DNA from: Puniceicoccales bacterium
GTDB lineage: Bacteria > Verrucomicrobiota > Verrucomicrobiia > Opitutales > UBA953
NCBI GenBank assembly: GCA_031285745.1
Contig: JAITVQ010000044.1
Coordinates: forward strand, 1 to 41,980
Length of the DNA stretch: 41,980 bases
Reading direction: 5' to 3'
Below the pieces are notes generated by a model that saw only the letters and a program-made list of their open reading frames with translations, searched no databases and was not told the origin of the DNA. Numbering within the stretch: position 1 is the first letter of the stretch; every line of letters starts with the position of its first letter. Positions 15,825-39,405 of this stretch are shown here, piece by piece. Position numbers and translations under genes: made by a program.

Positions 15825-16607
15825 TTATCCGGCCATCTGCCCAGCCACCTCCATGCTACTGGAAGAACTGGACGCCGTTTCTGTCACCTCCTGTTTTTTT
15901 GCCGCCATCCCGCGCCGTTGTGCCACCGGCCATGCCACGGAGTCAATCCGGGCATTCCACTCGTTCACCAGCGCTGCGCCATTTTCGTCGGTTGGACTCA
16001 ATGCCATGTGTATCTCGATGCTTTTCACCAGCGATTGATAGGCCGCATCCATGGCTTCGCGGGCTAGGAGCACGTTCTTGTCGAACTGGCTTGCTCGCTC
16101 CGACAGACGTTTTGCCTCCAGATTTTTATACGACAGATTGTTTGCCTCCAATTCACTGACCCAATCGGTTAGGCTAAGCGTCTGCAAATCGGCAGAGGCT
16201 CCATCCTGCAAATCTTGGAGCATATTTGTCAGCGAGGCAGTTCTTTCGTTTCGAGACTTCCTCATCAGTGTCCGGTAATGCCAGAGGATGTTGTGCACCC
16301 TGATAGCCGCCTGACATTTGGCCGATTCGAAATGACGCAGATATGACGCTACTGTAGTACGCAGTCCGCGGAATGTCTTGCGACGTTTCTGGTCGAGTTC
16401 CTGAAGCTGCGCTGTGTGGACACTTCTGCGGATGATCTCCAGTGCAGTGTCCAGTTCATCGTAGCGGTCGTTATAGATCTCAACCAAGGCCGAAAAAATC
16501 TCGGACAGGTTATATTCGTTGACCAGTTTTGCTACTTTGTCGTGAAGCCCGAAGTGTTCCTCGTGACGTAAACGCGAAAGCGCAATGGTCTTAATCTTAT
16601 TTCTCAT
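15825..16607 (-). CDS. DUF6261-like helical protein, copy 1
   Basis: A 260-aa protein of unknown function, clearly homologous to the gene at 37796-38572. Shared blocks include RLR-EEHFG, YDELD-ALE, FLRH/YLRH, SADL and AYKNL/SYKNL; overall identity is roughly 35-40% by eye. The family looks like DUF6261, uncharacterised and mostly known from Bacteroidetes. The composition is almost wholly alpha-helical and charged, with no signal peptide or membrane helix. The tail is Ser-rich and ends in Met-Ala-Gly (SSSSSS...GQMAG), like the paralogue. Upstream, 49 bp before the start, lies a small hairpin (CCAATC/GATTGG, 16656-16676), and 180 bp before it begins a 42-bp-period hairpin array. No catalytic motif was found. 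Confidence 0.8.
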   Translation of the reverse strand: MRNKIKTIALSRLRHEEHFGLHDKVAKLVNEYNLSEIFSALVEIYNDRYDELDTALEIIRRSVHTAQLQELDQKRRKTFRGLRTTVASYLRHFESAKCQAAIRVHNILWHYRTLMRKSRNERTASLTNMLQDLQDGASADLQTLSLTDWVSELEANNLSYKNLEAKRLSERASQFDKNVLLAREAMDAAYQSLVKSIEIHMALSPTDENGAALVNEWNARIDSVAWPVAQRRGMAAKKQEVTETASSSSSSMEVAGQMAG

Positions 16608-16786
16608 GATATATGTATTTTTAGTATTATGTGTAGTTTATGATAGTTAATCATCCCAATCGGAATAATTGATTGGTAGTAAGCAGAAGAGGGATTTTCT
16701 GGGAAAAGGCGATGATTTTGTTGATGAAATTGTTAATTATAAGTTGTGCTGGAAGGTTACGGAAGTTTTTGCACCGTGATAGCCTT

Positions 16787-17074
16787 CTCCGTATTGATAC
16801 GGAGCTTCCATTTCACCTAGGGAGGTGTTTGAGAAGTAATACGGTGGCATTAATCCCGGTGAGATAGTTCCGCCGTATGCGTACGGAGACGCCAATTCAC
16901 GAAACATGGGTCTTCTGTCCTAATACGGAGGAGCGATTCCGGCCGGTGAGGTTTGGCCGTATGCATACAGTCATGCTGTAACAGCTGGCATGAGGTTTCC
17001 GTATGGGTACGATGCAAACAAATCAGCTGATTTTGTCCCTCTGTATGTGTACGGAGGAGACTCGTTGCCCGGCA
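16787..17074. repeat. Array 1: seven 42-bp units, each with two palindromes
   Basis: This occupies most of the gene-free stretch 16608-17022 and runs into the end of the next ORF. The first palindrome type (CCGTAT..ATACGG core) is centred at about 16796, 16838 (decayed), 16880, 16923, 16964, 17005 and 17047, a 40-44 bp pitch. Best copies are CTCCGTATTGATACGGAG (16787-16804) and CCTCTGTATGTGTACGGAGG (17038-17057). Between them lie palindromes of unrelated sequence: CACCT/AGGTG (16814-16827), CCGGCCGG (16939-16946), TCATGC/GCATGA (16971-16993), AAATCAGCTGATTT (17020-17033) and TGCC/GGCA (17066-17074); those near 16860 and 16900 are weak. No frame is open through the array. The remaining 16608-16786 is AT-rich leader DNA. 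Confidence 0.75.
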
Positions 17075-17517
17075 GGGAAGGACATCAACTGGTAGGGTGT
17101 GCTGGTGTCGTTGTTGATGCCCATGTTGAAAATGAGGAACGGCGCCTCCTCATACATGCGGGCCTGCCAGAGAGTGTCGGCGTAGTTCTCAAACGCGATT
17201 TTGATGGTGAGCGCCTTGCCTTTGCCCAGCGCGTCGGAGATATCCTCGGAGGACCAGGTTATTTTTTCGCAGGCATCCTTGGATTGCAGTCCTCCGGCTT
17301 GGAAGTAGGCATAATCAATAACCTTTTGCCCCTTGGCGTTTTTGACAAAGTAAAGACCGGTATTGAGATTGAACCCAAGCTCGACCCGGTCGTTTTTCAG
17401 GTAAACGGAGTTGGGACCATCCGCAGTGCCTGTGGCCACAGTGACGTGGTTTTGAGCCAAGGCTGTGTTAAGATAAAAGACAAACAGGAGAAGAAATCCG
17501 AGCAGCAGTTTTTTCAT
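17023..17517 (-). pseudogene. Truncated secreted glycosidase-like gene (N-terminal domain only)
   Basis: The 164-aa ORF begins with a signal peptide (MKKLLLGFLLLFVFYLNTALAQ). A beta-sandwich-like segment (VYLKNDRVELGFNLNTGLYF, then MYEEAPFLIFNMGINND) resembles the N-terminal domain of large secreted alpha-galactosidase-type glycosidases, usually several hundred residues longer. No catalytic domain follows. Family-like sequence stops near SFPAGQR (about base 17065), exactly where hairpin array 1 begins, and the reading frame ends inside the array at 17023. In another frame of the array, PYxYG-like pieces recur every 14 codons but are broken by stops. I read this as a gene cut by insertion or recombination at the array. 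A short functional protein cannot be excluded. Confidence 0.6.
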
Positions 17518-37795: not shown

Positions 37796-38572
37796 TTATC
37801 CTGCCATGCCCGATGAGCTTGAAGAATCGGCTGTTGTTTCCTCCAGCTTGTTCTTTTGGGCGGCCATGATGCCGACTCGCTGGGCGACCAGATGATTGTA
37901 GTAATCAATCTTGTCGTTCAGGCGAAACACCAGACTGACCATGTTTTCATCCGCAGGCGTTAGTAATCCGAGATTGTTTAGCTCCCGGACCACGGCTTGG
38001 TAGGCGGCGTCCGCCAATTCGCGGGCTTCGTCCACCTTCTTTGCCGGATGCCGGATTTCTCGTTCCTCGGTGCGCGAGTCTTTCAGGTTTTTATAGGCCT
38101 GATTATGCGTCTCCAGTTCGGTCATCCACGAGGTTACCCCGAGCAATGTCAGGTCGGCGGACACCTGATCCCGCAGATCGCCCAGCATGTGGGTAATCCC
38201 GTATGTTCTTTTGTCGCGGGACATATGCGCCAAGTTTCCGTAGTGCCGAATGATGGCGATGACCCGCTCGGCCGCCCGGCGCTTGGGCGTTTCGCTGTGC
38301 CGGAGAAATCCCCGCACTGCCGAACGCAAGCGCCGGTAGGTGTAGAGCTGCAACGCATCTGCTTCCTTCACTTGCTTGGTGAAGGCACTCTGGCGGACGA
38401 CCTCCAGGGCATCGTCCAGTTCGTCGTAGTGTCCTTGGTAGATGGCCAACAGGGACACGAATGCCTCCGACAAGCTATAATCGCTGGTTACTTTGACGAA
38501 TTCGGCGTGGAATCCGAAGTGTTCTTCATTACGCAGGCGGGTGAGCCGCACATTTTTCACTATATTTTCCAT
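37796..38572 (-). CDS. DUF6261-like helical protein, copy 2
   Basis: A 258-aa paralogue of the gene at 15825-16607, with shared blocks RLRNEEHFGFHAEF, HYDELDDALEVVRQS, FLRHSETPKRRAAERV and AYKNLKDSRTEERE. It is predicted all-helical, cytoplasmic and charged. Like the first copy it ends in a Ser run plus a Met-Ala-Gly tail (SSSSSGMAG). A hairpin CTGCCA/TGGCAG (38611-38627) lies 39 bp before the start codon, comparable with the small hairpin before copy 1. Further upstream come a 137-bp MITE-like element and then a second 42-bp-period hairpin array. The family is uncharacterised; I see no enzyme motif. Confidence 0.8.
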   Translation of the reverse strand: MENIVKNVRLTRLRNEEHFGFHAEFVKVTSDYSLSEAFVSLLAIYQGHYDELDDALEVVRQSAFTKQVKEADALQLYTYRRLRSAVRGFLRHSETPKRRAAERVIAIIRHYGNLAHMSRDKRTYGITHMLGDLRDQVSADLTLLGVTSWMTELETHNQAYKNLKDSRTEEREIRHPAKKVDEARELADAAYQAVVRELNNLGLLTPADENMVSLVFRLNDKIDYYNHLVAQRVGIMAAQKNKLEETTADSSSSSGMAG

Positions 38573-38885: not shown

Positions 38886-38975
38886 TCTATCTGTCTTGAG
38901 CGGACTTTATGTAACCAACTCTGGAACTGGTATTTTTGCCGGAAGCGAATGGGGCAAGTGCAAAAAATGAGCCCT

Positions 38976-39290
38976 TTCCGTTGCTGACGGAAGCATGAGG
39001 ACCATTGAAGATGGTCCCGTCGTCAGCGACGATGCTATGAAAGCTAATGGAGATGGCTCTTCCGTCAGTGACGGAAGCATGATCTCCAACGGAGTTGGCC
39101 TCTCCGTCAACGACGGCGATATGAACTCCAGTGGACTTGGTGTCGCCGTCAGTGGCGGCGGAATGAAATCCAATGGAAATAGCCCTTCCGTCAGTGACGG
39201 AAACATCATCTCCAACAGAGTTGGTCCTTCCGTCAACAACGGCGGAGGCTTTGCACTTGGTTTTGACACCTCCGTTCACGACGAAAATGA
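38976..39290. repeat. Array 2: eight 42-bp units, each with two palindromes
   Basis: The first-type palindromes are centred at 38984, 39024, 39068, 39110, 39152, 39194, 39236 and 39278, five of the seven intervals being exactly 42 bp. Best copies are CTTCCGTCAGTGACGGAAG (39059-39077), CGCCGTCAGTGGCGGCG (39144-39160) and TTCCGTCAGTGACGGAA (39186-39202). A second palindrome lies between each: ACCATTGAAGATGGT (39001-39015), CCAACGGAGTTGG (39086-39098), TCCAGTGGA (39127-39135), TCCAATGGA (39169-39177) and CCAACAGAGTTGG (39212-39224). The last two units are decayed. Three reading frames happen to stay open because 42 is divisible by three; I do not read them as genes. After the array, 39291-39405 is the leader of the sigma-factor gene. 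Confidence 0.85.
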
Positions 39291-39405
39291 CCCCTATGCT
39301 AGAGGTGATGACAAATCTCCTGTCTGCCCTGTCCGGACTGGGTTTCTGCTTTGAGATTCCTGTTGCGGTTGGGGATATTTCCTTCATCTCCTCGGGTTTC
39401 TTCTC

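Follow-up and report, generated by a model that had tools for sequence, protein, structure and literature searches.

Palindromes or tandem repeats tied to a particular gene are known from several systems. RAYT (TnpA-REP) genes are linked to palindromes, each paralog having its own palindrome type, and these palindromes are also dispersed intergenically. In the type III toxin-antitoxin systems ToxIN, CptIN, and TenpIN, tandem repeats lie directly upstream of one small gene. In parC/ParR, tandem and helically phased sites lie upstream of the gene whose product binds them, and centromeres of this type work with a ribbon-helix-helix DNA-binding adaptor and a filament NTPase. The arrays described here lie beside genes of the DUF6261 family, whose function is uncharacterised and which is reportedly mentioned by name in one published paper; in the literature that was searched, a DUF6261-linked array is nowhere described. 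They are like REP/BIME-RAYT in that the palindromes are gene-linked and paralog-specific, and the intergenic dispersal of REP is found for the L009- and L007-type dyads but not for the array with which this work began. They are like type III toxin-antitoxin loci in being tandem repeats upstream of one gene, and like parC/ParR in being tandem, helically phased sites upstream of a gene. We know of no partner NTPase for DUF6261. The BrickBuilt MITE, whose intergenic tandem repeats are dispersed in a Bacteroidales genome, has a 23-nt unit and terminal inverted repeats (PMC4596501), and it was rejected as a match because the unit is not 41 or 42 bp. The same paper describes the 464/PgRS elements of Porphyromonas gingivalis, which also belongs to Bacteroidales, only as direct repeats of 41 nt that stand in tandem within a MITE-like element (PMC4596501). 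By that description, the 41-nt tandem period is shared with the DUF6261 arrays. To our knowledge, 464/PgRS has no link to DUF6261.

The window is a stretch of 41,980 nucleotides from a Puniceicoccales bacterium (contig JAITVQ010000044.1 of assembly GCA_031285745.1, positions 1 to 41,980), the genome of which is called the source genome below. Its palindrome array (16785..17079, without strand) consists of dyads on a 21.0-bp comb, with CCGTAT/ATACGG-type dyads every 42 bp and weaker ones midway. An earlier note on this DNA had described paired palindromes kept in register at a spacing of 40-44 bp and had called for a shuffled control at 21-bp pitch. The pairing and the register proved to be non-random. 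A comb with a pitch of exactly 21.0 bp and 0 indels fits the array, the centres running as 16795.5 + 21k to 17068.5, and with 13 teeth it scores 60 of 104 pairs, a score that 0 of 500 dinucleotide shuffles reached (mean 36.9, sd 2.2, maximum 45). Thus the periodicity in the earlier description stands but its looseness does not. Among alternative pitches of 16-26 bp in the array region, the top score was 51 at 24.0 bp and the remainder scored 44 or less. The CCGTAT-type dyads of the 42-bp register pair at 7, 3, 6, 5, 6, 4, and 5 of 8 positions (sum 36), and the in-between register pairs at 2, 3, 4, 4, 4, 7, and 3 of 8 (sum 27) against a background mean of 2.0; the probability that 7 random window positions reach a sum of 27 is 1.4e-4. 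Of the five in-between palindromes that had been named, CCGGCCGG and AAATCAGCTGATTT are exactly in register, whereas CACCT/AGGTG, TCATGC/GCATGA, and TGCC/GGCA are off by about 4, 2.5, and 1.5 bp, respectively.

A second array lies at 38974..39309 (without strand), where CCGTCANTGACGG-type dyads alternate with CTCCAN(N)GGAG-type dyads on a 21-bp comb from 38984, with a comb score of 72 against 37.5 +/- 2.3 in shuffles. Tandem Repeats Finder (score >= 30) called a 42-bp array at 39049-39235 within it and did not call the array at 16785..17079. The 42-kb window has no third comb of comparable score, and no second copy of the array at 16785..17079 was found.

The gene linked to the first array (15825..16607, minus strand, 260 aa) has the array on its 5' side. 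The earlier note had called this gene DUF6261-like, and its product does belong to DUF6261 (PF19775, E 2.2e-32, 112.6 bits against a curated cut-off of 27). The second array is upstream of a second DUF6261 gene (37796..38572, minus strand) whose product is 47% identical to the first (E 9e-62). In a Pfam scan of the linked gene and five other window genes, the linked gene gave DUF6261 only, and neither an HUH transposase nor a Cas protein was found. A CRISPR array was rejected because the whole 41/42-bp unit repeats in most arrays and no Cas protein is among these six genes. Between gene and array is a putative promoter/leader (16608..16712, minus strand) with a TTGAC/TCGAC-like box followed by a stem-loop, CCAATC-N9-GATTGG, ahead of the ATG (16656..16676, minus strand). 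When 14 source-genome paralogs were aligned, box and stem-loop were found just 5' of the gene in all, and between array and gene where an array exists. Because of this promoter-like box the arrays of the source genome are placed upstream of the likely promoter. The leader stem-loop (16656-16676; L001-L014) is kept with changing sequence, with sense-strand T.G pairs in some paralogs, and unlike the array it may be a real RNA element. On the far side, a 164-aa ORF with a signal-peptide-like start (17023-17517, minus strand) runs into the array and terminates inside it; a secreted-protein gene may have been cut here by the gene-array unit.

Homologous loci were examined in two sets. The first set had 82 unique genes from the source genome, one relative, 13 Bacteroidales/Bacteroidetes loci, and copies in nine genomes, and 5 of these were excluded because their upstream DNA was too short. 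Of the remaining 77 upstream regions, 65 were above the maximum of 20 shuffles, and the best lag was 41-44 in 64 of the 65. Once this result was known, a validation set was drawn from the order to which G098 belongs, and 16 of its 66 loci were dropped as duplicates or for having no usable start. Here 44 of 50 regions were above the maximum of 50 shuffles, with a lag of 40-43 in 41 of the 44; the lags were 41 (20 regions), 42 (19), 40 (1), 43 (1), 45, 62, and 66. Background tiles of 700 nt exceeded 20 shuffles in 12 of 99 cases and did so with a lag of 40-43 in 1 of 99. Thus the pattern is general to the family, and a significant array, as judged against shuffles, is absent from 12 of 77 genes in the first set and 6 of 50 in the validation set. 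The source genome itself has 16 DUF6261 matches, with 11 of 13 testable upstream regions above shuffles, and its arrays differ in dyad sequence from locus to locus, one sequence per paralog. The family is patchy, being present in 2 of 95 genomes comprising that of the window and its relatives and in 21 of 198 from the order of G098; the copy number per carrier ranges from 1 to at least 18. Seven of eight same-genus genomes have no PF19775 match, and the eighth, G002, has one together with its own 41-bp array. At L071 (G100:C160) the best 42-bp array is downstream and not upstream of the DUF6261 gene, and the arrays of L035 and L036 are preceded on their upstream side by long GA microsatellites.

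The geometry of the window array recurs throughout the family. Dyads with at least 7 of 9 pairs numbered 500 in the 77 upstream regions against 219 per shuffle, and their centres were 41 bp apart 34 times (0.6 expected) and 42 bp apart 77 times (1.6 expected); distances of 21 bp and 63 bp each occurred 10 times (0.7 and 0.5 expected). Chains of at least 4 dyads were found in 42 of 127 upstream regions and in 0 of 381 shuffles. When symmetry was measured in 105 non-redundant intervals of such chains, the sole other rise was at the half period, namely, at 20.5 bp in 41-bp arrays (mean 3.31 of 8) and at 21.0 bp in 42-bp arrays (3.43), with about 2.0 elsewhere. The dyad centres are 0-1 nt in most arrays, which follows by construction from the best fit. 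At 93 loci outside the source genus the median array span is 280 bp and the median distance to the ATG is 62 nt. The exact pitch of 20.5/21.0 and 41/42 bp is helical phasing and is relevant to DNA-bound proteins. The earlier observation is sound and larger than its locus. Gene and array make up a unit throughout a protein family; its helical geometry is fixed while its sequence drifts, and self-complementarity is retained as the letters change.

The in-between sequences had been called unrelated. Within the window array they do differ from one another, but across arrays the half-sites share base preferences, a loose motif TTKCG-N-A read towards the centre of the dyad. One profile per array was aligned on the dyad centre, and arrays with proteins of >40% identity were removed; 25 remained of the 43 with even centres and 17 of the 20 with odd centres. 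With distances given in bp from the centre, even-centred half-sites prefer T at 8.5 (T:A 14:3) and at 7.5, either T or G at 6.5, and then C at 5.5 (C:G 16:1); further in they prefer G at 4.5 (G favoured 11:2) and A at 2.5 (A over T 13:1). Odd-centred ones prefer T at 8 (ratio 14:2) and C at 3 (ratio 9:0). The CTCCGTATT half-site of the window array agrees at 7.5, 5.5, 4.5, and 2.5. The more alike two proteins are, the more alike their half-sites: similarity goes from 0.31 at 10-30% protein identity through 0.40-0.42 at 30-50% and about 0.6 at 50-70% to 0.76 above 80%, although co-inheritance of neighbours alone could yield this rise. The window protein and that of L002 are 64-65% identical, yet their half-site similarity is 0.37.

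Arrays of some types also occur away from DUF6261 genes. The L009-type dyad is found 37 times in the source genome, in arrays on 15 contigs, on only one of which a DUF6261 gene was detected. A reversed control pattern of this dyad occurs 0 times in the source genome, and the dyad itself 0 or 1 times in each of 8 same-genus genomes. The L007-type dyad is on 4 further contigs of the source genome. The satellite copies that were examined are intergenic and flanked by ordinary genes. In G273, which is one contig, the L175 array has two relatives, 87 and 90% identical, that are intergenic with no DUF6261 within about 1.5 kb. In the L009-type arrays (91 units, 15 arrays) the information was 1.34 bits in the arms, 0.34 in the 3-nt centre, and 0.43 in the spacer, and sparse symmetric positions flank the mid dyad; the 42-bp step of this profile was imposed by the search, so its spacing is no evidence. 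Because the arms are conserved and the centre and spacer are not, the satellites seem to be under constraint and not in decay. In the source genome many satellite arrays (L117-L134) are at contig ends; since the draft assembly breaks there, the number of satellites is probably underestimated.

The AF2 models of two DUF6261 proteins are all-alpha (pLDDT 83 and pTM 0.49 for the product of the gene at 15825..16607; pLDDT 87 and pTM 0.55 for the other). Neither has a confident PDB match, the best Foldseek E values being 0.05-0.07, and the best VIA results (Z 10.3 with rmsd 6.0 over 197 residues, and Z 9.5 with rmsd 9.2 over 189) are in the range of unrelated helical bundles. The search for a solved relative gave a best E of 0.44, and no recognised DNA-binding domain or fold was seen, a result compatible with a fold that such comparisons miss. 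The conserved residues are R75, R183, D72, and R167, with no clear catalytic set. The median pI of 128 DUF6261 proteins is 6.0, slightly acidic where a basic value might be expected of a DNA binder. Taken together, the modelled folds and the pI data neither show nor exclude DNA binding. Fifteen members gave weak matches only to known defence or phage families (best E 0.009 in PADLOC and 0.0019 in PHROGs), PADLOC gave no match for the window protein, and no relative was found among viral contigs; both a known family and a phage origin were thus rejected. Most source-genome paralogs have serine-rich C-terminal tails (ASSSSSS-like), which the Bacteroidales members of alignment A2 do not have.

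We consider it very probable that the arrays are phased protein-binding sites that act at the DNA level. The earlier note had favoured hairpins or cruciforms, and not a simple binding site, as the target of selection, and on this point it is not supported. Selection of the palindromes for their ability to extrude as DNA structures, regardless of their letters, would suit the retention of pairing while letters vary between arrays, and the mutual differences of the in-between dyads in the window; it is very improbable in view of the position-specific base code and the conserved arms, the helical pitch, half-arms of only about 8-9 bp, and the score of mid segments unlike all others of their own array, which was 2.45 against 1.90 (n=11; none >=5). 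An array that acts as RNA, as a repeat antitoxin or leader RNA of the type III toxin-antitoxin kind, is improbable too. The order of array and gene resembles that of ToxIN, and a TAnnTTTG box is upstream of the array in several Bacteroidales loci; with the strict Bacteroidales promoter motif, hits at 93 loci were few, 5 in the array-gene gap, 5 within 100 bp upstream of the array, and 1 inside it. However, sense-strand mismatches, counted as cells and not as independent events, were G.T 47 against A.C 39 in the primary dyads, where G.T is not above A.C and there is therefore no sign of selection for RNA pairing, and G.T 8 against A.C 28 in the mid dyads, a bias contrary to that expected of a sense RNA. 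Also, none of 8 loci had an Rfam match, RNA has no need of an exact helical pitch, and, unlike type III toxin-antitoxin loci, those of DUF6261 have no ToxN, CptN, or TenpN match (in Pfam, for the linked gene of the window), near-loopless dyads, and, in the source genome, an array upstream of the likely promoter. As for a decayed protein-coding repeat, a 42-bp unit is divisible by three and one reading frame is open in some arrays, but the window array has stop codons in all six frames and 41-bp arrays are as common as 42-bp arrays (20 and 19 of 44); its probability is negligible, in agreement with the earlier view that the array is not under selection as protein.

If the arrays are DNA sites, the question is what binds them, and we put the chance that the linked DUF6261 protein is itself the binder at about even. 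It is unlikely that another host protein binds the phased dyads, with DUF6261 serving as a co-factor or being a regulated passenger off the DNA. The acidic-side pI and the lack of a recognised fold would fit it, and the geometry of the dyads does not by itself tell what binds them; on the other hand, a single host protein would not readily produce a separate dyad sequence for each paralog in one genome, and within the genus the array type is found together with DUF6261. Quite unlikely is a mobile repeat like REP/RAYT, in which the array is dispersible, DUF6261 promotes copying, and gene-less arrays are non-autonomous copies. Satellites at many intergenic sites of the source genome and two in G273, several contig ends inside satellites, and the range of gene copies per carrier speak for it. 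Against it, Pfam gives DUF6261 and no HUH transposase, no universal catalytic residues are evident, defined ends or target duplications are not established, and the arms of the copies look to be under selection; the strict 41/42-bp helically phased arrangement of the dyads is a further difference from REP/RAYT.

Returning to DUF6261 as the binder, gene and 41/42-bp dyad array would form a two-part unit. As double-stranded DNA the array would be a row of protein sites, with dimers on dyads of about 18 bp, and every four helical turns would carry a strong dyad and a weak one. All dyads would lie on one face of the helix and could pack, presumably cooperatively, into a nucleoprotein strand. Each paralog would recognise its own version of the loose half-site, inner bases being free to vary, and the bound protein would regulate its own gene and mark satellite arrays elsewhere in the chromosome, perhaps for autoregulation together with chromosome organisation or array maintenance. 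The boldest form of this proposal, which we hold only tentatively, is that DUF6261 is a new class of sequence-specific DNA binder that lacks any known DNA-binding fold and evolves its specificity fast, the 20.5/21-bp dimer pitch and the outer TTKC contact staying fixed, and that each paralog coats its own array and satellites as a filament and so creates many mutually independent centromere- or boundary-like addresses in one genome. DUF6261 loci differ from parC/ParR in being chromosomal (in the complete genome G273), in having many divergent paralogs per genome, and in an all-alpha model that does not appear ribbon-helix-helix-like.

For the uncharacterised DUF6261, the array that accompanies almost all copies, exact in helical geometry and particular to each gene in sequence, is a specific and testable clue. 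If DUF6261 proteins bind the arrays, they are a natural library of matched protein-DNA pairs in one geometry that would help to show how DNA specificity evolves, and the satellite arrays would then point to a role across the chromosome, of which no description was found. Even with another binder, the arrays make up a new class of repeat linked to a gene. At five satellite loci (L120, L123, L126, L130, and L133) a co-directional ORF begins about 180-210 bp beyond the end of the array, the start codons being assigned mechanically, and possible regulation of the downstream ORFs by these arrays is a lead to follow.
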